From positions 1-31,377 of the IMG/VR virus record IMGVR_UViG_3300043449_000497: a DNA stretch of 31,377 bases. The stretch is one strand, 5' to 3'. The notes beneath the pieces were generated by a model. It did no database searches. It worked only from the letters and a program-made list of their open reading frames with translations, and was not told the origin of the DNA. This document shows positions 3,382 to 30,318 of this stretch, in pieces. Position numbers and translations under genes: made by a program. This DNA is from a virus. Numbering within the stretch: the first letter of the stretch is position 1; every line of letters begins with the position of its first letter.

Positions 3382-3933
3382 ATGCCTACTTTTAGTAAAC
3401 AGATGTCTGGTGGTAAAGCCGTTAGTGGCGGAGCCTTGGCTCCAAGAGGTCGGCGTGGAACAAGTAATCAAGTAGCAACTTATTGGGCTGGCTCAATGAT
3501 TGTTGATGTTCCAGTTTTGGCTACCGCTAGCGCACAAAATGCTTCATTTACTGTTGCTATTTCCAATTATGATTCAACTGTAACATATCTTCTTTCAACT
3601 ACTGCTGGTTCAATCTCTAGAAGTGGTGCAACAATTACTGTTAGTGGTTTGAGCGCATCTGCTTCAGCAACTATTACCGTGACTGGAACAAAGAGTGGTT
3701 TTGAAAACTCTGCTCCAGCAACAAGAAGCGGTAACGCTGCTGCTGCATGTTCTTGTGTATATGCTTACACTCAGGTTGAAGGTGGAAACTGTTGTTGTGT
3801 TGGCTTCTGCGGTGGCGCAGCAAATCAAGTATGCTGCTACAATATTATTGTTTATACACCTGCATCATCTCCTTGCACTGGAAGTTGTGGTTCTAGCGTT
3901 GGTGGATGGTATGCTTGTGACGGAACTTGTTAA
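3382..3933 (+). CDS. Ig-like protein with cysteine-rich C-terminal domain
   Basis: Residues 1-40 share the MxTFSK opening of the previous protein and probably anchor it. Residues about 45-115 look like a bacterial Ig-like beta sandwich (FTVAISNYDSTVTYLLSTTA, then ATITVSGLSASASATITVTG), a module used on phage surfaces to bind sugars or cells. Residues 120-183 are different: twelve cysteines at 123, 125, 137, 138, 139, 143, 151, 152, 165, 169, 179 and 183, with Gly, Ser and aromatic residues. Such density suggests disulfides formed outside the cell or metal binding. It is likely an exposed adhesin. The cysteine domain is not one I recognise. Confidence 0.75.
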   Translation: MPTFSKQMSGGKAVSGGALAPRGRRGTSNQVATYWAGSMIVDVPVLATASAQNASFTVAISNYDSTVTYLLSTTAGSISRSGATITVSGLSASASATITVTGTKSGFENSAPATRSGNAAAACSCVYAYTQVEGGNCCCVGFCGGAANQVCCYNIIVYTPASSPCTGSCGSSVGGWYACDGTC

Positions 3934-5195: not shown

Positions 5196-5627
5196 ATGAG
5201 AAAAGTTTTGTTATTGGCTATTGCCATGTTTTTGTGGATTTCACCAACTGTTGTCCACGCTAAGAAGTATCCGACAATTCGTTGTAGGAACCATTATGAC
5301 ATTATTACAATGATTGCAGATAGCAAAGACATGATGTATCAGGTGGATTACATTATGTGGCGTGAATCACGATGCAACGCATCGTTGATTAACCGTGATG
5401 ACCCTAACGGTGGGTCTATTGGGCTATTTCAGATTAACAAGTTTTGGTGTAAACCAAACCGATACACCAAGCAGGGTTTTCTTCAGGATGCTGGTGTTTT
5501 AACAAAATGTAAAGAACTTTATAATCCTGAAACAGCAGCGAAGGCTTTTATGGCTATTTATGATTATGCTGATAATCGTTATGGTGATGGTTTCGGTCCG
5601 TGGGGCGGTGAACCTAGGTGGACTTAA
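5196..5627 (+). CDS. Secreted lysozyme / transglycosylase-like protein
   Basis: This 143-residue protein has a signal peptide at residues 1-22 (MRK, hydrophobic stretch, then VHA). The mature part has MWRESRC with the likely catalytic E57, then GGSIGLFQIN at 72-81, the hallmark of goose-lysozyme and lytic-transglycosylase folds. GPWGG closes the domain. C30, C60, C85 and C105 could form disulfides outside the membrane. It would cut the glycan strands, complementing the peptidase upstream, or act during infection from the particle. AGGA lies 9 bases before ATG. Its end overlaps the GTG of terL by 10 bases. Confidence 0.8.
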   Translation: MRKVLLLAIAMFLWISPTVVHAKKYPTIRCRNHYDIITMIADSKDMMYQVDYIMWRESRCNASLINRDDPNGGSIGLFQINKFWCKPNRYTKQGFLQDAGVLTKCKELYNPETAAKAFMAIYDYADNRYGDGFGPWGGEPRWT

Positions 5628-18577: not shown

Positions 18578-21500
18578 ATGTCTGTAACTCGTGGTCCGTT
18601 AAATGTTCCTAAACCTTATGTGGGTAAAGGTATTGCTATTGGTAATGTTATTAAACCAAAAGCAACCGAAAAAGATGAGGAAACAAACCGTCAAAAGTTG
18701 GATGCAACTTTGCAGACCGCTATTGAGCGTATCGCACGGGACCCGAAGTTGTCAGAGGACCAAAAAATTAAGGCTGTTATAGAAGTACAAAAACAGGCTG
18801 AAGGTAAAAAGTCCCCTAGTGTGTGGGGTGGTGTTGTTGGTGCTGTAAGTGGTGCGGCTAAAAAGGTTGTTGCTGGTCCTATTTATGCTATGAACCAGTG
18901 GGCTGATTTGGTTAAACCTCTGACGAATACGGCGATGTCTGCGGCTAACGAAATTGAAGGTGCGCTTCAAACTCAGGGTGCAAAACTTGAACAAAAGAAA
19001 CAAACAGGTCAACCGTTAAGTGCAACAGAAAAGATTTTTAGCACACTTGGTATTGGTGGTTATGGTGATGAGGGCAAAACTAGCAGGATTTTGTCCAACC
19101 CTGACCAGTATGCACCAAGTTGGGACAGGTTTGTAAAGAACGCTGGTCGTGAGGACCATTATAATCCGTTTTTCACTGAAGAAAAGTTTGCTGACAAGTC
19201 AACTGCATCAAAACTGTTTTCAACAGTTTATGTTGGTGCTATGGCTGACCCGTTAACTTATGCTGGTGTTGGTGCATTAAACCATGCTGGTCGTGCAGGT
19301 CGTGTCGCATTAGCGATACGCATGGTTGAAAAGTATGGTGACGATGTTGTGGATGTTGCCCGTATCACTAGGTATGGTGTTGCTGGTGTTCCTAAGGCTT
19401 TGCGTGAAGCAGAGAACCTGAGCATGGGTATTCGTTATGCTGGCAAAATTATTCCTAAGACGGGTGGGGCTGAAACCGCTTTTGCTTATGGTCGTGCCGC
19501 TGTTGGTGATGTCCTTCAGGCTGGTAAATATAATCCGATTCGTGGACTGGTTACCGCTACAACACCTAAAAGTCTAAAGGGTATTCAGGCTTTGAATGTT
19601 GGTCGCCGTGCAGGTCAAGGTTTAGATTATGAACAGATTCGTCCAAGCATAGTTCAGTTCACTGCAAGCAAGTTCGCTAAGGGTGCTACTTCGGTTGCGT
19701 ATCGTCAAGCACAACAGGAACTTGTTGAGTTGGCTCAACGCCAAAGGGCTTTGGTTGGTAAAGGTTTGCGTAACAAAGCCGCTAAGGCTGTTGGTATCGG
19801 TGCTAGGGATGCTGAAGCGTTAAACATTTATCGTTATATTGAAATGCCTGAGTCAGAAATGTTGGCTAGTAAGGCTATTACGGATGAAACCAAACAGTTA
19901 GTTGTTGATATTCGTGCATGGCAGGACAAGTTGCGTAATTCCGCTAATGCGGAAATACGCCAGTTCGGTGATGACTTTGGTACGAATGTTACTGAGATTG
20001 GTTTCATTGATGACTATTTGCATCACAAGGTTACACCTGAGGCTAGAAAATGGATGATGTCTCAGCAAGGACAGCGTAGTTTGGCACGAGGTGAATGGAA
20101 GGGTTCTGATATCACCTTGAAGGAGTTGACTGATAATACTGGTCCTTTGATGTATCGTAAGTTGCGTGGTGAATATGTTGACCCTGATACTGGTGAAGTT
20201 GTTGTTGAAACATTTTTAGGTCAACCTGTTCGTTATGGTACGGTTGATGAGATTAACAAGATTTTTGGTGACGCTACAGAGGCACAGGGTTTAGGTCGTT
20301 TGCAGTGGTTTGAAACCGATATGGTTTCTATTTTGGATAGTTATGCGTTTTCTATTTCAAAGGTTAAGGGTAAGGTTGCGTTTGCTAGACGGGCTTTTGA
20401 TTTTGGTGACCCTGATATTATTCGTCCTTTGATTAAGAAGGTTGTCCCTGATGCTGAACTTGTGACACGCTTGGAGCGTGTTCATAGCACTATCGTAAAG
20501 ACACAGACACGGTTGCGTAATCGTGTTCAAACGAATGTTATTCGTTTGCAAGATATGGGTAAGTATGGTGTTCGTTATGCAACCAAGTTTTTGAATGGTG
20601 AATTAACTAAGAAGGCGATGACAACACAAGAGATTGCAAAGTTGACTCGTAGGTTGGATTTGGCTATTGCTGATTTGACTGCCGCTAATGTTCGTGCGGC
20701 ATCTATTGAGGCGGCTAAGCGTGGCGAGTTCCCTGTTTTGAACGCCGTGTTTTTGGATGAGTTAACAAACCTGCGGGCGGCGATTAATAACGCTGAGCGT
20801 TATGCCGCAACTATTGAGTTGCGTAACATTTATGCAACGATTTATCCGAATCATAATCCTACGACTTTGGCTGGTCGCAGCCCTGAGTGGTTGGCTGAAA
20901 AGATTATGAATTCCAAAGGTATTCCTGCTACTCGTGAGTTGCGGGAGGTTAATGCACGGATGCGTCAGTTGCGGGCGCAAATGGATGCGATGCCAGACGG
21001 ACCAGAGTTCACCCAGATGCGAGCCAGTTTGGAATCAGATTATTATGATTTGGAAAATGTTGAGCGTGGTTACAGTCAGATTGCAAGCGTAAAAGCAGAG
21101 GCTACTTATGCTGATGATGGTTTACTTTATGGTTCAGCAGATGACCTGATTGCTTTACCTGAGGAGGCTGGCTATAAGGCTTTCCGTACACGCCCACGAG
21201 ATGCTGGTTTCGCTAACGGTGATGACTCGGTTGCTGTCCACGCTATCCCTGAAAAAGAATTGGTTGACTTTCGTCAGCCAGCAGATTTGTTGGACTATTT
21301 TTCACCTGACAACTTCGGTGAGGATTTGGGTTTTGCTTTAGCACAAAAAGGTTTACAACTGGAAGGGGAGGAGTTCTCTTTTGGGTATCGCCAGTTGATT
21401 GAAACTGGCGAATACGATGACCAATTAGCCGAGTTTTATCCAGCGATTGCCACATTGATTGACACTATTCGTTGGAACACGCTTAATCATATTGACCCGA

Positions 21501-24052
21501 ACGATATTGTTTCTGATGCACAAATTGTAGAAATTTTTGAATCCATTGATGACGCTATCCGTCAGATACCTGACTTGGCTGACCCTGAAGATGTGGACAT
21601 TTTTGCTAGGGAGATTATGGAGGAAGTTTTTGGTGCTAGTGCTTTCCGCCGTAGCGTTGACCCACAAGACCCACGACAAGGTTTGCTAATCCCATCTAGG
21701 TTGATTGACGACACTGGTCCTGCTGATGAAGGTTTCGCTGTCATCCTTCCACATAACCATAATTTCCCACGAGCAACAGGTAACCCTACTGATGGTGTTC
21801 AGACTGTTAAGGGTAACAAGTTGGTTAAGAGTATTCTTGATGGTGATTATGAGCAAGCAAGTTTGCAAACAAGTTTGGCTAAGGCTGCTAAAGAGGAAGA
21901 AATCGTTGAACTTGAAAAAGCCGCACTTAATAGTGCGGATGCACGAGCAGAGTTGGCTTCTTTGGGTAAAAAGAAAGGTGGCTTCAAGTCAGCCGCTTCT
22001 AAGCGTCTGACCAAAACCGAGAAGGCTAAAGAAGTATTAGCACGGACAGGTACGGTTGAAATAAATATCGGTGGCGTTAAACAAACCGTTACTCGTGAGC
22101 AGGCGCAGAAACAGTTGGTCAAAATGGAGGCGCAACTTGAACGCAAGTTGGCTTCATTAGAAACCGAGATTGATGCTGTGTATCGTTCTGAGGGTGTTCC
22201 TAGGATTGGTTCTAAGGGTGGTCCGAAGGTTGATGCTGTAGCGGATTATAAAGAGCGTTTGCCGATGTTGATGAATCAGGCACGGGTTCTGAAAGATTGG
22301 AACAATACTGTCGGTACTGTCCTTGCTAAGGATATTCAGGATTTGCATTTGTTGGTTACTGCCCGCCCACCTAAGGGTGCGGCGGCTATGCAGTCGGCTG
22401 CTTGGGCAAGAAAGGTTTCTAGGTCTTTGGATGCTATTGACACGATTGTTGACCCTAGTGTGCGTCAAGCGTATGAGCGTATCACAAACCTGTTACATGC
22501 TGATGAGGCGCAACTGGCGTTGCTGGAAGGTGTAACTATTCCGAACATTGAGCGTCAACTAGAGTTGATGAAAAGCGGTTTGGTTGGTCGTTTGGTTGAT
22601 GACACTTTGGATGGTTGGACTGAGATTACGAATCTTGGTGTGATGATGCCTGATGAGATTATGAGTGTTTGGAAACCAAACTTGGAGAAGTTGCGTTCTA
22701 AGATTAATCAAAACAATTTCTTGAAAGCATACGACTATAGTGTGCAGTTCTTTAAAACTTATGCGACTGGAACTATCGGGTTCTTTGTTCGTAACGGTAT
22801 GTCGGCAACCTTTATGAATTATGTTGCTGGTGTTGGTAGTGACAATATTGTTTTGGGTTTCCGTGCCGCCCGTGCCATTGGCAAGGGCGAGGATGCTTGG
22901 ATGCGTTTCTTGTCCAAGTTGGACCCTAGTGAGCGTGAACTGTTTCAGACAGCATGGAAAATGACTGAGGCTTCAGGTCGTGGTGTTTCTGATGACCTTG
23001 CAAGCGTAGCGTTGCGAGGCAAGTTGAATGAAAAGATTATCAACAACAAGGCTACACAGTTTATTGCTCGTAAGAACGATTTCGTTGAACGGGCTGTTCG
23101 TCTGCCTATGGCGATTGACTCTTTGAAGCGTGGACAAACATACGATGAGGGTGTGGCTCGTATTGTGCGTTACCATTTTGATTATAGTGACCTGAGTGCT
23201 TTTGATGAGTCTGCTCGTAGGTTTGTTCCGTTTTGGATTTGGACTAGCCGAAATGTTCCGTTGCAGATGGTTGAACGGATGGTTCATCCGTCAGCGTATA
23301 ACACATATAATCGTATTGTTGAAGCGTCACCTGTTGGTGCAGATATTTTGATGCCAACATGGTTGAGTGAATATAATCCGATTGCTATTGCTGGTGTTGA
23401 CCAAGAGAATAAGAATGTTCCGTTCTTGCCGTTTGATGTTCCAATGACAAAGAAGGGTGGTCAGTGGGTTATGACACCTGATTTGCCTATGGTTCGTTTG
23501 CAACAGCAACTAGAGTCGTTTACCAACCCTGCTAAGTTGGTTGGTCAACTTGCGCCTGTGATTAAGTTGCCTGCCGAATTTATTGCTGGACGACAACTAG
23601 GTATTGATGTTGGACCGTTTAAGGACAGCAAAGTTCCTGCTGAAGGTGTTGTTGACAAATATGTTTTGGCAACTATCGCAGAAATTGTTGGTGGCGATGC
23701 TTTGGTTGGTATTGACCCTAAGACTGGTGGGCTGGTTATTAACGAGAAGGTTCCGTACACGGCACAAAACATTTTCCCAACATTAGGTCAAATGAACCGT
23801 GTTAGTGGTGGTTTAACTGGCGGTAAGGGTTCATACAAGGAGCGTATGTTGGGTAACATCGCTAACTGGTTTGGTATCCCAATTCGTTATGTTGGTCCTG
23901 ACCAACAAGAGTCGCAGGCAGTGGGTAACGCTGTAACTATTCGTGAATGGTTGGCTAACGAGGTTGAGGCTGGTCGTATGACCCCAACTAAAGAGTTGCC
24001 GAAGGTTGCAAAGAAATCTACGAAGCCAACGCAACCGATAGTTCTGCCATAA
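18578..24052 (+). CDS. Giant internal virion protein (1824 residues)
   Basis: This gene alone takes about a sixth of the window. The product is mainly helical with long Ala/Glu/Lys/Arg stretches, as expected for a podovirus ejection protein that forms a channel or enters the cell with DNA. Visible marks are a Gly/Ala-rich hydrophobic stretch near residues 80-105, a mixed region near 830-1060 with acidic segments and HNHNF (about 1055), coiled coils at 1085-1220, FFVRNGMSATF near 1400, and RFVPFWIWTSRNVPLQ near 1546. The last two motifs recur in large virion proteins of actinophages and cyanophages. No lytic domain is recognised. Its end overlaps the convergent gene at 24018. Confidence 0.85.
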   Translation: MSVTRGPLNVPKPYVGKGIAIGNVIKPKATEKDEETNRQKLDATLQTAIERIARDPKLSEDQKIKAVIEVQKQAEGKKSPSVWGGVVGAVSGAAKKVVAGPIYAMNQWADLVKPLTNTAMSAANEIEGALQTQGAKLEQKKQTGQPLSATEKIFSTLGIGGYGDEGKTSRILSNPDQYAPSWDRFVKNAGREDHYNPFFTEEKFADKSTASKLFSTVYVGAMADPLTYAGVGALNHAGRAGRVALAIRMVEKYGDDVVDVARITRYGVAGVPKALREAENLSMGIRYAGKIIPKTGGAETAFAYGRAAVGDVLQAGKYNPIRGLVTATTPKSLKGIQALNVGRRAGQGLDYEQIRPSIVQFTASKFAKGATSVAYRQAQQELVELAQRQRALVGKGLRNKAAKAVGIGARDAEALNIYRYIEMPESEMLASKAITDETKQLVVDIRAWQDKLRNSANAEIRQFGDDFGTNVTEIGFIDDYLHHKVTPEARKWMMSQQGQRSLARGEWKGSDITLKELTDNTGPLMYRKLRGEYVDPDTGEVVVETFLGQPVRYGTVDEINKIFGDATEAQGLGRLQWFETDMVSILDSYAFSISKVKGKVAFARRAFDFGDPDIIRPLIKKVVPDAELVTRLERVHSTIVKTQTRLRNRVQTNVIRLQDMGKYGVRYATKFLNGELTKKAMTTQEIAKLTRRLDLAIADLTAANVRAASIEAAKRGEFPVLNAVFLDELTNLRAAINNAERYAATIELRNIYATIYPNHNPTTLAGRSPEWLAEKIMNSKGIPATRELREVNARMRQLRAQMDAMPDGPEFTQMRASLESDYYDLENVERGYSQIASVKAEATYADDGLLYGSADDLIALPEEAGYKAFRTRPRDAGFANGDDSVAVHAIPEKELVDFRQPADLLDYFSPDNFGEDLGFALAQKGLQLEGEEFSFGYRQLIETGEYDDQLAEFYPAIATLIDTIRWNTLNHIDPNDIVSDAQIVEIFESIDDAIRQIPDLADPEDVDIFAREIMEEVFGASAFRRSVDPQDPRQGLLIPSRLIDDTGPADEGFAVILPHNHNFPRATGNPTDGVQTVKGNKLVKSILDGDYEQASLQTSLAKAAKEEEIVELEKAALNSADARAELASLGKKKGGFKSAASKRLTKTEKAKEVLARTGTVEINIGGVKQTVTREQAQKQLVKMEAQLERKLASLETEIDAVYRSEGVPRIGSKGGPKVDAVADYKERLPMLMNQARVLKDWNNTVGTVLAKDIQDLHLLVTARPPKGAAAMQSAAWARKVSRSLDAIDTIVDPSVRQAYERITNLLHADEAQLALLEGVTIPNIERQLELMKSGLVGRLVDDTLDGWTEITNLGVMMPDEIMSVWKPNLEKLRSKINQNNFLKAYDYSVQFFKTYATGTIGFFVRNGMSATFMNYVAGVGSDNIVLGFRAARAIGKGEDAWMRFLSKLDPSERELFQTAWKMTEASGRGVSDDLASVALRGKLNEKIINNKATQFIARKNDFVERAVRLPMAIDSLKRGQTYDEGVARIVRYHFDYSDLSAFDESARRFVPFWIWTSRNVPLQMVERMVHPSAYNTYNRIVEASPVGADILMPTWLSEYNPIAIAGVDQENKNVPFLPFDVPMTKKGGQWVMTPDLPMVRLQQQLESFTNPAKLVGQLAPVIKLPAEFIAGRQLGIDVGPFKDSKVPAEGVVDKYVLATIAEIVGGDALVGIDPKTGGLVINEKVPYTAQNIFPTLGQMNRVSGGLTGGKGSYKERMLGNIANWFGIPIRYVGPDQQESQAVGNAVTIREWLANEVEAGRMTPTKELPKVAKKSTKPTQPIVLP

Positions 24053-24408: not shown

Positions 24409-24577
24409 AAATTTCTCCTGCCAAATTTTCTATAGCCGCATCAATAGATGGGTATTCTTTGTTTATTTCTTTCAACGCATAAATAATAGCCATTAATGTT
24501 GCTATAACAAACTTGTCATCTACATTGAATTCTGTTCCTTCAATGCTGTATGGTTTCCCGTTTTTTCCGTAAGACAT
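24347..24577 (-). CDS. Hypothetical early protein
   Basis: The 76-residue protein starts MSYGKNGKPYSIEGTEFNVD and has a helical middle (DKFVIATLMAIIYALKEINK) rich in Ile and Leu that might be amphipathic. A Glu-rich stretch follows (IENLAGEIYEQIKEVESSG). It starts at TAATG, sharing a base with the stop of the DUF1599-like gene, so the two are probably translated together. The end lies inside the next gene's start region. No known domain is visible. Confidence 0.65.
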   Translation of the reverse strand: MSYGKNGKPYSIEGTEFNVDDKFVIATLMAIIYALKEINKEYPSIDAAIENLAGEIYEQIKEVESSGVERTTDPSA

Positions 24578-25074
24578 TAGATGTCCCTTTCTAGTTTGTA
24601 TTGGAATGTTCCAGCGTGATACATAACTGCAATTGTGGCGTAGCCAACAATGTCACGGTATGAATCCTCTAATGGTTCGTTCACTCCTTCGGAGCCACGA
24701 CCAATCAGATTTTTAATTCTAGCAATCTTGTCGCACATACGAACAGCCAAACCGAGAATACCAAAGTTGTTGATGTTCTCGTGACCGTAGTCGTGTTGTT
24801 TGCGACACAACAGTTCCAGCATGTCATTATGGTTGTATGGGATGCCCATTGATGTCATGTGTTGCAACGATTGTTCTCCAGCAGACTTCAGAACATCAAC
24901 CACTAGGTTGATGTCGTCACTGTCGTATTCGCCTGCTTGTAGTTTCAGAACCCACCTGCTCAGGAATGTTTCATGTGAGTCAAAGTCTTTCGGGTCGGGC
25001 ATTGTTGTCCGTGCTGCTTCCTCCATTATGTTTAGAACATAATCGGCAGCGGAATCCCATGTTTTATATTCCAT
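24577..25074 (-). CDS. DUF1599 (Nmad1)-like all-helical protein
   Basis: In this 165-residue protein, residues about 92-152 hold KQHDYGHENINNFGILGLAV, then RMCDKIARIKNL, then EPLEDSYRDIVGYATIAVMY. This is the DUF1599 pattern, a MazG-like helical fold proposed to act on nucleotides or on modified-DNA synthesis. The acidic residues in DYG, RMCDK and EDSYRD are candidates for metal or nucleotide binding. The N-terminal half is not conserved in what I can recognise. GGGAG gives a good start site, inside the end of the sigma-like gene. Role in replication or in nucleotide clean-up is inference. Confidence 0.75.
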   Translation of the reverse strand: MEYKTWDSAADYVLNIMEEAARTTMPDPKDFDSHETFLSRWVLKLQAGEYDSDDINLVVDVLKSAGEQSLQHMTSMGIPYNHNDMLELLCRKQHDYGHENINNFGILGLAVRMCDKIARIKNLIGRGSEGVNEPLEDSYRDIVGYATIAVMYHAGTFQYKLERDI

Positions 25075-25387
25075 ATATTTCTCCCATCATTTCTGTGAAT
25101 CGTTCGTCTTTGATTAGTGCCTTCTTTAGATTAGCCAAAGCCGAGTCCACCTTCCTCCATGCGTGTGACTTGGCTTTAATGCCAAGTTCGCTTGCCAACT
25201 CCTGATAAGTATTTCGTTGATAAAATATTCCATGTAATGCCTCTTGGTCTGCTTCGCTTAGCGTGGACAAAACCTCTTGAACGAGTTCAATTAATTCCCA
25301 ATCCGTTTCGCTGTGTTGTACCGAGAATGGTTGCATTAGCAACTCTATTTCGGTGTTTCCTGTTTTGCTAGTTGGTTCGTACTTCAT
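25064..25387 (-). CDS. Sigma-70 region 4-like HTH protein
   Basis: This 107-residue protein has LSEADQEALHGIFYQRNTYQ, then ELASELGIKAKSHAWRKVDS and ALANLKKAL at about residues 43-92. This is the layout of sigma region 4 (helix, turn and recognition helix), which reads -35 promoter elements. Region 2 is missing, so it cannot be a full sigma factor. It may bind host RNA polymerase or DNA as an anti-sigma, appropriator or repressor. It overlaps genes on both sides by 11 and 20 bases, so it is made together with the replication proteins. Confidence 0.75.
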   Translation of the reverse strand: MKYEPTSKTGNTEIELLMQPFSVQHSETDWELIELVQEVLSTLSEADQEALHGIFYQRNTYQELASELGIKAKSHAWRKVDSALANLKKALIKDERFTEMMGEIYGI

Positions 25388-25844
25388 CGTATGCTGTGTT
25401 AATCATCATGTCCATCACATCCTCAGGTTCCAGCAAATATCCTTTGGATGGGTTGCTGGATGCCATAGCAAAGTTGTGATATTTTTTGGGATTAAATCGC
25501 TCCTTGTTTACCTTTAGATACCGTTTGATTCTGTCTGTGCTGACGATTACAAAGGAGCCATCCAAGGTATAAACATATACCCACCATTTTGCTTTCGTTA
25601 TGGCAAGCCCTGAGGGCTTCCATAAAGGTTTACCTTCCTCATCAACTTTTTTGCGTGGGTTGTGAGTCATCTCTAGGACCATGCGCCCGTTGCGGTATCG
25701 GTCTGTTTTAACTTCAAAAGAACCTGACGACATCGCATCAAGGAAATCCTCTACAAGTTTTTCACCTTTTTGACCAAACTTTAAGTCTTGGTGGAAGTCA
25801 AACTTGCGGGCTGGAATGTCATAATCGGATTGGTTTTTGGTCAT
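25368..25844 (-). CDS. PD-(D/E)XK-type endonuclease
   Basis: In this 158-residue protein, residues 21-35 have LKFGQKGEKLVEDFL (E28) and residues 43-58 have FEVKTDRYRNGRMVLE, giving the E44-V-K46 half of a PD-(D/E)XK active site and E58. The same order is common in small phage nucleases of the VRR or Holliday-junction groups. It continues with KWWVYVYTLDGSFVIVSTDR. It probably cuts branched or replicating DNA, next to a RusA-like gene with related duties. Start and stop overlap neighbours (ATGA on the upstream side). Exact substrate cannot be read. Confidence 0.7.
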   Translation of the reverse strand: MTKNQSDYDIPARKFDFHQDLKFGQKGEKLVEDFLDAMSSGSFEVKTDRYRNGRMVLEMTHNPRKKVDEEGKPLWKPSGLAITKAKWWVYVYTLDGSFVIVSTDRIKRYLKVNKERFNPKKYHNFAMASSNPSKGYLLEPEDVMDMMINTAYDEVRTN

Positions 25845-26338
25845 CTTTTTTCCGCCCTGACCACGATTACCTGTTTGTCATCCAACCATGCGACACCATT
25901 AAGACCGTCCATCAATAGTTTCACATAGTTGTCTATGTCGCCACGCAATTTGGATTGCGCCCCGTCAACTGGTGTGACGATTACAGTTGTGCCTTCAGGT
26001 GTGAATACACAGTCCACCTCTACTAGCCCTTCGTATTTAGGTCCGTTCCATGCTTGCGCTATGATTGCTTCGGCGTTAAGTGTGGTTGCTGGTGTGAATA
26101 CACGACCATAACGGGTCATGCGTGGTCTGCCTTTTGGCACAGGCTTTGAATCAACCTTCAGTTTGTATGCTTTGTTTTGACCTTTATTAATGGTTTTGCG
26201 TACAGCCTTCGGGTCAACTTGTTTGATTTCTACAGTGCCATCAGCCTTGGTGACTTTGATTGGTCCTGCTTTGGGTATAATGGCGGCTTTTTTTCTTCGT
26301 ACTTGTTTAGCCCGCTTCTTAGAGTATTCAATTCCCAT
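25841..26338 (-). CDS. rusA: RusA-like Holliday-junction resolvase
   Basis: The 165-residue protein, from about residue 60, has PVPKGRPRMTRYGRVFTPAT and then LRGDIDNYVKLLMDGLNGVA followed by WLDDKQV. These are the RusA marks: PxPKxRPR, the D-x-DN-xx-K metal-binding element and the W-DD pair. RusA dimers cut four-way junctions that form in replication or recombination. The first 55-60 residues are an extra lysine-rich region (SKKRAKQVRRKKAAIIPKAG) not present in the classic protein; it may add DNA binding. The start is at TAATG, the stop at an ATGA junction. Confidence 0.88.
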   Translation of the reverse strand: MGIEYSKKRAKQVRRKKAAIIPKAGPIKVTKADGTVEIKQVDPKAVRKTINKGQNKAYKLKVDSKPVPKGRPRMTRYGRVFTPATTLNAEAIIAQAWNGPKYEGLVEVDCVFTPEGTTVIVTPVDGAQSKLRGDIDNYVKLLMDGLNGVAWLDDKQVIVVRAEKR

Positions 26339-26922
26339 TATGGTTTCGCTGTCTGTATAAAGGTGTGGAACGGTGCGCCGCTACCGTTATCAAACTTGGC
26401 GGCTACCGTTAATGATTTCAACAACACCTGTTTAGCATTTGCTTGTAAGACACGCTTGCCAGCGGTGTACGCCTGTAATGCTCCTAGACCGTAGTGTGCG
26501 CCTGAACCGATTGCATACAGGTTGCATGTGTCGGTTTCGGTTCCATAATCGCTGTCTATTTGAAAGATGACACCATTAGCGCAAACGAGTATGTCGTTTG
26601 CTGATTGTGCTGGCTGGTCATCATATTGTGGTCTGCCTGCACCATGCGCTTCTAAACATTCTTTGTAGGCGGGGACAAACTGTGACACGATGAACTTAAC
26701 CAGTTTTGCGCCAACGAGTTTAGGGGGCAGTACTGGTGGTGTGAACGCATGTTGAATAACATTCGCTCCACGGGTATCACCTGCGACACCAATCAAATAT
26801 TTACCTACGGTAACTACTTTGGGCTGGTTCATTTTGCCGACACGGTTATAATCATCGGTCCATTGTGAATCGGAACCGATTGCACAATAGTCGTCACCTT
26901 GGATTGCGAGTATGGTTGTCAC
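26338..26922 (-). CDS. Proteasome beta / HslV-like Ntn hydrolase
   Basis: In this 194-residue protein, Met1 is followed by TTILAIQGDDYCAIGSDSQW, with Thr2 ready to become the N-terminal nucleophile. GSDSQ supplies the conserved Asp, and QPKVVTVGKYLIGVAGDT has the conserved Lys and the following beta strand. Later NDILVCANGVIFQIDSDYGT and YAIGSGAHYGLGALQAYTAG match the proteasome fold, including its GSG segment. HslV has the same length and layout and no propeptide. It starts at GTG (GTGA overlap with the primase stop). It could be a peptidase, or an inactive relative used for assembly. No unfoldase partner is seen in the window. Confidence 0.75.
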   Translation of the reverse strand: MTTILAIQGDDYCAIGSDSQWTDDYNRVGKMNQPKVVTVGKYLIGVAGDTRGANVIQHAFTPPVLPPKLVGAKLVKFIVSQFVPAYKECLEAHGAGRPQYDDQPAQSANDILVCANGVIFQIDSDYGTETDTCNLYAIGSGAHYGLGALQAYTAGKRVLQANAKQVLLKSLTVAAKFDNGSGAPFHTFIQTAKP

Positions 26923-27836
26923 GAATGTACCCTAACTACGAGTTTGTCTATTTCTAGTTCACCATCGTGGCGCAAATGATATTTGCCCCAACGCTTGTCC
27001 GCTGTCATCAACACAATTTTGGTTTGACTAGGGTTTAGCCCACTGCGAACAGTTTCGTGACCTAGTTTTGCCAGTGTGGATGAACGGTCTTTGCCTGTTA
27101 ACGGTCCGTCACGCCAAATGACTTTGCCCAACGGGCTAAGGAGTTGCATAGCCTCATCAAGAGTTGCATCATAAACATAATCATGGTTTACGACTGCCGT
27201 TTGCTTGGGTGGTTGATACATGGATGCGATGCGCTGGATGGTTTCCTGCGGAGTCCTAGTTGCCATAGCGGCTTCAACGAAGTCGTTGAAACTGTACGGA
27301 TTGGTGAACTTGCCCCACGCAACATCTTTCGCATGAAAGATGCGTTGCTTGTCAGTTTGGTAATTACCAACATTCGGATACGGTAACCGTACATAGTTCC
27401 CATATTGACCTGCTTTCAAAGTAATCTGCTTAGGGTTGACTTCGGTGGTTGGTGTTTCCGCAACCTGTGATGCGACCATCAACATGTTACGCATATCCTC
27501 AGCGAGGACAGCATGTTCAGCGAATACCCAAACATGGAATCCTTTTGAACGGGACTTCTCTATCCATGACACAATGCCTGCTTCCATGAGTGCATCATGC
27601 AAACGAACAGCATGTTCCTGTGCATCGGCTGTGTCATAATCAACGCAACCCCAAGCAACATAATAGTTGTCAATGTGTGGAACAAGCGGATACACACCAA
27701 TAGGTGCAGACCCGTCAAGATGATGTTGGAACACAAGTTCGGTCAATGGTTCTTTCACACATTTACCTTCGTTATGCCCATAGACATCACCTCTGCCACG
27801 AAACAGGGTTATGAAATCCCGTATGTCAGTTATCAC
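26919..27836 (-). CDS. Archaeo-eukaryotic-type primase
   Basis: In this 305-residue protein, WGCVDYDTAD near residues 62-71 gives the D-x-D metal pair (D66, D68), and SKGFHVWVF at 97-105 gives the S-x-H motif of AEP primases. A third part, LKAGQYGNYVRLPYPN near 140-155, matches the G-x-GNY-x-LP element of the same superfamily. A C-terminal region follows with SPLGKVIWRDGPLTGKDRSS. It would start DNA chains for replication, alongside the DnaB-like ATPase, with which it overlaps by GTGA. The start is GTG behind a GGAGG site. No polymerase domain is fused. Confidence 0.85.
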   Translation of the reverse strand: MITDIRDFITLFRGRGDVYGHNEGKCVKEPLTELVFQHHLDGSAPIGVYPLVPHIDNYYVAWGCVDYDTADAQEHAVRLHDALMEAGIVSWIEKSRSKGFHVWVFAEHAVLAEDMRNMLMVASQVAETPTTEVNPKQITLKAGQYGNYVRLPYPNVGNYQTDKQRIFHAKDVAWGKFTNPYSFNDFVEAAMATRTPQETIQRIASMYQPPKQTAVVNHDYVYDATLDEAMQLLSPLGKVIWRDGPLTGKDRSSTLAKLGHETVRSGLNPSQTKIVLMTADKRWGKYHLRHDGELEIDKLVVRVHS

Positions 27837-28909
27837 CAGTCCTCCAATGCTTCAGCGATAGTTAATTGTTCTAGTGGATTGTCCACGCTAGGTCGTTGTT
27901 CTTTCCACGGTAACACACCAGTGTCCAACCGATGCAAACGACCCGTGCCATATTCAATCGTAAAGTCCATGTCATCCAACAATGCGGATGCAGGACGCTT
28001 ACACTTCACAAGGTTCAAGGTCAAAGTATCCATGTGGATACGCAACTCATACTGCAAAGATTCAATCTTTTCCATAATCTTTTCAGTGTTAGATGCCCGT
28101 TCCAGTTTCTCTTGCAAGTCACGAATGTGACCTTCAATTTCAAACCGTTTACGGCGCACACCAATGATATGTGTTGCCTGCTGTTCACCACCATATGCAC
28201 CTGAACTGATAGTCATTTTCCGTCCGTCAGCACCAGCGGTGCGTGACGACTGATGCAACACTAGCAAAGGTTTATTATGGCGTTTACCGAACGCTTTGAT
28301 TGCGTTAGCCTTGGATGGAACATCCTCACCTGCACCTGTTATGAGTTCCAAATAGTCCACAACGATTAGTTGTGGTTCACCCATAACATCGGACACTTCT
28401 GCCAATGAGCGTTCCATGTCCAACAGTGAAACTGTTTGGTCAAAAACCGCTAGGTTCGGGAAATGTTCTGTTGCTGTTTCTTTAAGCAGGTTGATTGCTT
28501 CACGGTCATTGTTTGCGACCTGTTGTTCCAACTGGTTCGCATCCACCCCATGCACAACACACGCCAACTTTATGAGTGTCAGTGTGCGTGGTTCATCAGG
28601 ACAGAAATATACGACACGCTTGTTACGGTTCGCACTCAGGATTTGTAGCAACGCCAGCGTTTTACCGCTATGCGAGTAACCGTTAATCAGGCATAGTTCG
28701 CTTGGTGCGATGCCACGCATCTGTTCGTCAATGTCTGCGAAACCCAAATAGACACGCTCGTTTGGTGTTTGCGCCCAATGAACATAATCATCGGCAGCCT
28801 TAACCAATGGCGCATAATAGTTGTATTTTGGCGTAGATAAAGAATCAGGCGGGGAGATAATTTCTCCCCGCCCAATCTTTGCCCATCGCTCCGTGTAATC
28901 AGGAGCCAT
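27833..28909 (-). CDS. DnaB/RecA-like replicative helicase
   Basis: The 358-residue protein has GYSHSGKT at 77-84, the Walker A of RecA-fold ATPases, and LIVVDYLEL near 181-189 with Walker B D185. HQSSRTAG near 219-226 and GAYGGEQQATHIIGVRRKRF near 238-257 are DnaB-type sensor and DNA-binding loops. A normal DnaB has an N-terminal primase-binding domain of about 150 residues. Here only about 55 residues precede the motor, and they differ. A coiled coil near 260-290 and a tail with GTGRLHRLD complete it. It likely unwinds DNA with the adjacent primase. Confidence 0.87.
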   Translation of the reverse strand: MAPDYTERWAKIGRGEIISPPDSLSTPKYNYYAPLVKAADDYVHWAQTPNERVYLGFADIDEQMRGIAPSELCLINGYSHSGKTLALLQILSANRNKRVVYFCPDEPRTLTLIKLACVVHGVDANQLEQQVANNDREAINLLKETATEHFPNLAVFDQTVSLLDMERSLAEVSDVMGEPQLIVVDYLELITGAGEDVPSKANAIKAFGKRHNKPLLVLHQSSRTAGADGRKMTISSGAYGGEQQATHIIGVRRKRFEIEGHIRDLQEKLERASNTEKIMEKIESLQYELRIHMDTLTLNLVKCKRPASALLDDMDFTIEYGTGRLHRLDTGVLPWKEQRPSVDNPLEQLTIAEALEDW

Positions 28910-29464: not shown

Positions 29465-29493
29465 ATTGTAGCACACACATGTCAGACATCCAA
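29465..29493 (-). promoter_or_regulatory. Putative sigma-70-type promoter
   Basis: On the minus strand there is TTGGAT (-35, 29488-29493), a 17-base spacer and TACAAT (-10, 29465-29470). The start would be near 29458. It would drive the operon from 28916-29368 leftward through helicase, primase and nuclease genes. The -35 is only half matched. The TACAAT -10 is the same as in the left operon candidate. Confidence 0.45.
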
Positions 29494-30318
29494 CTGTTCA
29501 GGGAAGGCGTTGTCCGCTTCACGAACAAACGCACCTTTACAAATGGACCAAAAACCGCACCATGCTTCAGAACACAGCGCAGACGAATCGTTCATTATCC
29601 AGTTGTTTTCGTAACCGCTGTTTAAAGCAGTATTGACCGCACCACGGATATATTGACGCAACCATTGTCCATGCGCTTCGGTTCGCACAATAGACACAAT
29701 CTGCGACTTTGGTTTCTCTTGACGGACCATAACGCCGAAACGGAAATCCACAGGATAACTAGGCGACAACCCAAGGTTGACGCAAGCATCAGCATAAACG
29801 CTGGCTTGGATGCTGGACTTCTGCTTTTCCTTAATGTTGTATTGGCGACTGGCTGTTTTCCAATCCCAAATAACACCACTAGGGGAAACATAATCCATAG
29901 TTCCCTCAACATAAACGGCATAATCGTTGATGGTGAAACCCAATGGGGCAGAGAACTTGTGTTCCACCTGACCGCCTTGCTCAACATGGGGTAGGATGCC
30001 TTCATAAAAGGCTGACGACATGGATTCCAGATATGCAGGGATTTTCTCTGGGTCAATGTTGGTCTGTTTATAATTCGTTTGCTGAAGAACAGCAAACTCA
30101 TCGCTAACAACATTAAGCATTTGACCGAACTCCGATGACCTGCCATCCAACACCGACTCAATACCAGCATGTAACGATGTGCCGATAATCGTGGCATCCG
30201 AACCAGTACGGAATTCAGGTCGCACCTGACCAAGCCTAGCCCGTTCAGGGCAAATCGTCATGTCACCTAACCATGACTGGCGAATATAAATCTTTTGATT
30301 AACTCTATCAATTCTCAT
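29482..30318 (-). CDS. RecB/Cas4-like exonuclease
   Basis: In this 278-residue protein, a G-x-x-x-H element (GTSLHAG, H50), then VEGTMDYVSPSGVIWDWKTA near 135-155 with the D and D-W-K motif, and KSSIQASVYADACVN with the Q-x-x-x-Y end are the RecB nuclease motifs. C23 (TICPERARLG) and three cysteines near 249-260 (ALCSEAWCGFWSICKG) could hold an iron-sulfur cluster, as in Cas4 and AddB. It probably resects DNA ends for recombination or replication. GGAGG precedes the ATG by 7 bases. It lies upstream of the helicase-primase group. Confidence 0.85.
   Translation of the reverse strand: MRIDRVNQKIYIRQSWLGDMTICPERARLGQVRPEFRTGSDATIIGTSLHAGIESVLDGRSSEFGQMLNVVSDEFAVLQQTNYKQTNIDPEKIPAYLESMSSAFYEGILPHVEQGGQVEHKFSAPLGFTINDYAVYVEGTMDYVSPSGVIWDWKTASRQYNIKEKQKSSIQASVYADACVNLGLSPSYPVDFRFGVMVRQEKPKSQIVSIVRTEAHGQWLRQYIRGAVNTALNSGYENNWIMNDSSALCSEAWCGFWSICKGAFVREADNAFPEQLDV

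Follow-up and report, generated by a model that had tools for sequence, protein, structure and literature searches.

The minus-strand open reading frame at 26338–26922 of the window (the whole 31,377-nt stretch of viral DNA analysed here, or 31.4-kb record) is a genuine gene for a proteasome-like Ntn hydrolase, its similarity to that superfamily lying far above chance, and it sits in a phage replication operon between a primase-polymerase and a RusA-like resolvase. The peptidase joins a family that is already known in phages and is functionally unexplained: Fuchs et al. 2021 (PMC8665760) described 22 new proteasome homologues, among them the phage-borne PPH and AAH, and phage homologues have been catalogued since then without function or informative gene context. 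In our main reading, to which we give a probability of about 0.5, the protein is a propeptide-less, catalytically competent threonine peptidase of the HslV/BPH group that is made early, assembles by itself and works without a dedicated unfoldase.

Reading frame, fold and active site

The frame opens with GTG and runs for 194 codons, yielding a 194-residue protein (excerpted: MTTILAIQGDDYCAIGSDSQ...QPKVV...GVAGD...AIGSGAHYGLGA...FDNGSG), and the gene overlaps both of its neighbours, through GTGA with the primase-polymerase stop and through TAATG with the RusA start. The in-frame codons upstream of the GTG are TTC, ACA and GGT, then the stop TAG. Because this stop lies four codons upstream and no start codon intervenes, the gene cannot encode a propeptide, in line with the earlier reading from the sequence letters that there is none. 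Homologues start at the corresponding position, with either ATG or GTG, and differ in their upstream sequence. Thirty-six close relatives encode the same full-length peptidase, and its dN/dS of about 0.07–0.26 among close relatives indicates purifying selection.

Pfam PF00227 (Proteasome) matched the peptidase with 22.7 bits, just over the curated cut-off of 22.4, and was matched independently by the peptidases of 46 of 50 relatives (best 1.3e-13), while PHROG 1040 (‘peptidase HslV family’) aligned over the whole length at 8e-21. A sequence search of the PDB returned BPH at the top (8.4e-9 with the single sequence, 4.5e-13 with a profile), followed by HslV and 20S beta subunits. For structure prediction, an earlier model built from a shallow alignment (pLDDT 50) was discarded and an alignment of 50 viral sequences was used instead, giving an AlphaFold monomer model with pLDDT 93.2 and pTM 0.89. 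This model has the four-layer proteasome beta fold, with helices H1 (residues 50–58), H2 (71–92), H3 (142–153) and H4 (160–177) and no S12/H5, and a loop of about 16 residues after H2 (HGAGRPQYDDQPAQSA) that contains no acidic run. Foldseek placed BPH 5ovs first (2.7e-13, TM 0.76/0.79), then HslV and 20S beta, at probability 1.00; in a viral structure library, a 92%-identical entry (UniProt A0A6J7XBU4, TM 0.98) was already named HslV.

The sequence-only reading of this DNA had called the protein an Ntn hydrolase of the proteasome/HslV superfamily, and two of the checks that it proposed, a profile search with the proteasome family and structure prediction followed by a structural search, bore this out; Thr, Asp and Lys, the oxyanion Gly and the GSG element all stand where they should. 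Its narrower suggestion of an HslV or 20S beta type held for the superfamily only: the nearest solved structures are those of BPH instead, and the HslV equivalog cut-offs were missed.

The gene and its key positions are as follows, with active-site conservation counted over 137 distinct phage homologues.

26338–26922, minus strand: proteasome-like Ntn hydrolase (phage HslV/BPH/AAH-like peptidase), GTG start; profile, PDB and structure matches
26917–26919, minus strand: Thr2 codon, predicted nucleophile (Thr1 after Met removal); Thr in 136 of 137, Ser in 1; aligns with Td-BPH Thr-1
26869–26871, minus strand: Asp18 codon (proteasome Asp17); invariant, 137 of 137; aligns with BPH Asp-17
26818–26820, minus strand: Lys35 codon (proteasome Lys33, Td-BPH Lys-37); invariant, 137 of 137
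26779–26781, minus strand: Gly48 codon (oxyanion-hole Gly47, Td-BPH Gly-50); Gly in 134 of 137
26599–26646, minus strand: loop from H2 to the next strand, residues 93–108, at the BPH pore-loop position; from the secondary structure of the model
26503–26505, minus strand: Ser140 codon of the GSG element (Td-BPH Ser-139); Ser in 101, Thr in 35 and Cys in 1 of 137

The sole Ser at residue 2 belongs to Tenacibaculum phage pT24. Mean column identity among the homologues is about 44–51%, far below the conservation of the triad, and across 17 very diverse phage proteins only Met1, Ile4, Asp18, Lys35, Gly45, Gly139 and Gly141 are strictly invariant; a profile from these 17 was too variable for pattern searches. 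In Td-BPH, Thr-1, Asp-17, Lys-37 and Gly-50 were named as catalytic by the BPH authors (PMC5777263). Judged by its residues, the peptidase active site is intact and predicted to be catalytically competent. An intact triad is no guarantee of bulk proteolysis, because BPH assembles into a ring (a tetradecameric double ring) yet is inactive in standard assays (PMC5777263).

Replication operon, variable slot and relatives

The genes surrounding the peptidase are listed below.

29482–30318, minus strand: PD-(D/E)XK exonuclease of the same operon (PF12705, 3.8e-11)
27833–28909, minus strand: DnaB-like helicase (PF03796, 4.7e-14; phrog_19, 6e-19)
26919–27836, minus strand: primase-polymerase of the archaeo-eukaryotic type, upstream of the peptidase (PF22548 AEP-TOTE, 1e-20); syntenic in relatives
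25841–26338, minus strand: RusA-like Holliday junction resolvase, downstream of the peptidase (PF05866, 3.3e-16)
25368–25844, minus strand: conserved operon gene, phrog_13596 (PHROG profile match; synteny)
25064–25387, minus strand: sigma-70 region-4-like protein (Pfam and PHROG profile matches)
24577–25074, minus strand: DUF1599 nucleotide-modification-associated protein (Pfam profile match)

The operon reads PD-(D/E)XK exonuclease, small protein, DnaB-like helicase, primase-polymerase, peptidase, RusA, phrog_13596 and sigma-like protein. The peptidase lies between the primase-polymerase and RusA in 36 of 36 close relatives, some of whose neighbouring genes run off their contigs, and this synteny, together with the overlapping genes, confirms the earlier placement of the gene within a phage replication operon with a primase and RusA. 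Its median identity in relatives, 78%, matches the helicase value, exceeds those of the primase-polymerase (69%) and RusA (60%) and places it among the best conserved genes of the operon. Homologues in named phages lie among genes for DNA ligase, thymidylate synthase, DHFR and ribonucleotide reductase.

With the helicase as bait, we counted relatives having at least 3 kb of sequence downstream (n = 50), and the peptidase was present in 44 of them. It was missing from the slot in the other six (L166, L167, L169, L173, L181 and L182); in three of these, RusA follows the primase-polymerase almost directly, and in three the slot is filled by small ORFs or a lysozyme-like gene. Three further relatives (L136, L139 and L147) have a helicase that is 78–84% identical and a peptidase that is only 43–44% identical, and the tree puts the L136 peptidase in a different subclade. 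Because of these absences and swaps, we regard the peptidase gene as accessory yet well conserved, and its slot as variable.

The slot itself appears as a hot spot in which unrelated small genes stand beside the peptidase or replace it (L001:7450–8001, L006:7454–7987, L140:7976–8398, L181:7992–8390, L182:7947–8330). The lysozyme-like genes of L181 and L182 resemble the window ORF at 5196–5627, and some slot ORFs read, by eye, like nucleases.

A separate observation concerns the first ~21 codons of the helicase gene, which contain two adjacent hairpins (minus strand, helix 1 at 28906–28888 and helix 2 at 28873–28847) with about −40 to −45 kcal/mol per 81 nt. Among 21 distinct sequences, standard pairs fill 95.8% of the pair cells, and both partners are changed in 33 cells, against a mean of 7.8 after shuffling and 7 in the best slid control. 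An Rfam search with the hairpins gave no match, and they occur also in relatives without the peptidase; they look like a coding-embedded regulatory RNA element.

By profile, the structural genes are those of a podovirus-like phage, with a P22-type portal and an SU10-type capsid. At the end of the structural strand, an 1824-residue protein (18578–24052, plus strand) has only weak matches to phrog_19395 and phrog_3927 and is perhaps an internal virion or ejection protein. The left end of the window encodes a 183-residue ORF (3382–3933, plus strand) with a strikingly cysteine-rich C-terminus (CSCVY...GGNCCCVGFC...CCYN...).

In a tree of 40 proteins, the peptidase falls in a supported clade (98/96) that also contains the proteins of Actinomycetia phage DSL-LC01, Planktophila phage E7, Arthrobacter phage Pitbull and Microbacterium phage Pumpernickel. 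Its sister clade combines plasmid proteins from rhizobia and Paraburkholderia with those of Moorella, Geobacillus, Psychrobacter and Tenacibaculum phages. Of 18 matches to plasmid homologues, 15 are rhizobial, two from Paraburkholderia and one from Streptomyces; on Rhizobium jaguaris plasmid pRCCGE525b, the homologue (L276:8001–8546), labelled hypothetical, lies near nifH and nodD2. Phages E7 and F5 were isolated on ‘Ca. Planktophila’ (PMC10202952). The G+C content of the window (44.8%) is similar to that of E7 and F5, and E7 has in common with the window the peptidase, the DUF1599 gene and one small ORF (67% identity). WhiB was found in four large relatives, in DSL-LC01 and in E7, and in none of the 24 close relatives; scans of genome contigs with the peptidase alignment and with the DSL-LC01 WhiB confirmed no relatives. 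An actinobacterial host is our best guess for this phage, and because WhiB is absent from the close relatives we infer it from the gene tree only.

Unfoldases, proposed mechanism and alternative readings

No AAA+ match was found within the 31.4-kb window, which agrees with the earlier remark that no AAA+ unfoldase is visible; the remark holds for this record and not for the fuller operon of longer relatives. The close relatives measure 33–42 kb against 31.4 kb for the record, which looks incomplete, and in 22 of 24 longer relatives the operon contains, farther upstream, a gene for an AAA+ ATPase, at a place that would fall just past the right edge of the window (31377). This ATPase lies about 8.7 kb upstream of the peptidase, matches PF00004 (up to 3.7e-12) and phrog_249 (2.4e-61), is of the AAA_5/phrog_249, MoxR/CobS type and has a DUF7192 protein next to it. 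In nearly all longer relatives the two genes, in that order, head the operon, for example at L268:316–2467 and L272:43–2252.

The MoxR/CobS-type AAA+ occurs in each of the six relatives that lack the peptidase and could not be found in the peptidase-bearing phages E7, F5, Pitbull, D’Alembert, Geobacillus E3 and Vibrio 166E36-1, a distribution on which we demoted it as a dedicated unfoldase. Searches for an HslU/ClpX-type AAA_2 (PF07724) gave nothing over the cut-off in 24 close relatives and nothing in 11 named phages carrying a peptidase homologue; sub-threshold AAA_2 matches in 16 relatives fell on the MoxR-type ATPase. Given these two results, a dedicated proteasomal unfoldase in the phage is unlikely, but the peptidase could still make use of the MoxR-type AAA+ of the operon or of a host ATPase.

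In our main reading, the peptidase would be translated early in infection with the helicase, primase-polymerase and RusA genes; their synteny and overlaps are observed, and the early timing is suggested by gene order. By the established rule for Met before Thr, methionine aminopeptidase would take off Met1 and so free the Thr2 nucleophile at once. Subunits with the predicted fold may then build a single or double ring that encloses the active sites and is gated, as in BPH, by the loop after H2, and this assembly would cut unfolded or recruited proteins without a dedicated phage unfoldase. The targets would most likely be a narrow set of host proteins, in takeover or counter-defence, because the gene is accessory and swappable and not essential to replication. 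We put forward only tentatively the wider possibility of an actinobacteriophage clade with its own unfoldase-independent, early proteasome-like ring that removes specific host or defence proteins; if true, this ring would be the first functional viral proteasome-type compartment.

It seems unlikely to us that the protein is a ring peptidase in need of an ATPase, be it the operon's own MoxR/CobS-type AAA+ or an unfoldase of the host, such as ClpX or Mpa/ARC. The shared operon in 22 of 24 longer relatives speaks for it, as does DSL-LC01, which has an AAA ATPase/CobT-like pair upstream of its peptidase homologue; however, the AAA+ is MoxR/CobS-type rather than HslU/Clp/Mpa-type, its occurrence does not follow that of the peptidase in either direction, and Fuchs et al. 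2021 reported no AAA+ co-occurring with the new proteasome homologues (PMC8665760). We also doubt, and rather strongly, that the protein is a catalytic non-bulk enzyme whose monomers or small oligomers process or ligate one particular protein. The monomeric ligase connectase does belong to the proteasome-like proteins (PMC8665760) and BPH is inactive on model substrates (PMC5777263), yet connectase lacks H1 and H2, whereas our model has H1–H4, which in ring members are inter-subunit contact helices (PMC8665760).

Two readings offered earlier from the sequence are disfavoured by gene placement and by residue conservation, respectively. That the enzyme matures virions by cutting capsid or internal virion proteins is very improbable. 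Prohead proteases are common in phages, and profile searches recognised none among the structural genes that they covered, but in all relatives the peptidase lies in the replication operon on the strand opposite the structural genes, its homologues elsewhere lie near nucleotide-metabolism genes, and relatives that lack it retain the rest of the operon. A non-catalytic ring or scaffold resembling proteasome alpha subunits is scarcely credible, as Thr/Ser2, Asp18 and Lys35 are kept in every one of the 137 homologues at a mean column identity far lower than that.

Returning to the threonine peptidase of the main reading, its context is tight, always primase-polymerase/RusA in relatives bearing the gene, and its active site is kept. 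Sister phages without the gene in the same slot provide a natural with/without comparison, and the named phages provide usable phage–host pairs; with such sisters and with homologues in phages of cultured actinobacteria, what the peptidase cuts therefore becomes testable.

Comparison with known systems

PHROG 1040 and A0A6J7XBU4, an HslV peptidase subunit of an uncultured Caudovirales phage, are like the peptidase, their annotation having been transferred from HslV. HslV (ClpQ) has the same fold and catalytic residues and supplies the second-best solved matches; in contrast, its linker after H2 is short where the peptidase loop is longer, and the phage has no HslU match over the cut-off. HslV proper was rejected on the NCBIfam equivalog models, which gave 32.4 and 31.6 bits against cut-offs of 137 and 157.75.

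BPH (PDB 5ovs, 5ovt and 5ovu; PMC5777263) is the best solved match by both sequence and fold. The two proteins share the catalytic residues, the longer loop after H2, the lack of a propeptide (for BPH, PMC5777263) and the lack of a known unfoldase. However, they are 22–24% identical, BPH stands on a long separate branch of the tree, and its H2–S7 loop has a five-residue acidic run, whereas the peptidase loop is long without one. Connectase lacks H1 and H2 and has a two-helix insertion between S3 and S4, whereas the peptidase has both helices and no such insertion. PPH is, like the peptidase, a phage-borne group I protein, but has about 140 residues and no H2 (PMC8665760); the 194-residue length and helix H2 (71–92) of the peptidase rule out this assignment.

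The peptidase is probably a phage proteasome homologue of group I, of the AAH type. As in AAH, the subunit is compact, with H1–H4, no H5 and no propeptide, and is found in phages; the rhizobial origin of its closest plasmid homologues is in keeping with AAH. Fuchs et al. 2021 found no gene context hinting at function and no actinobacterial phage with AAH (PMC8665760), whereas the peptidase clade includes Arthrobacter, Microbacterium and ‘Ca. Planktophila’ phages. If the peptidase is an AAH, this clade would fill the actinobacteriophage gap stated in 2021.
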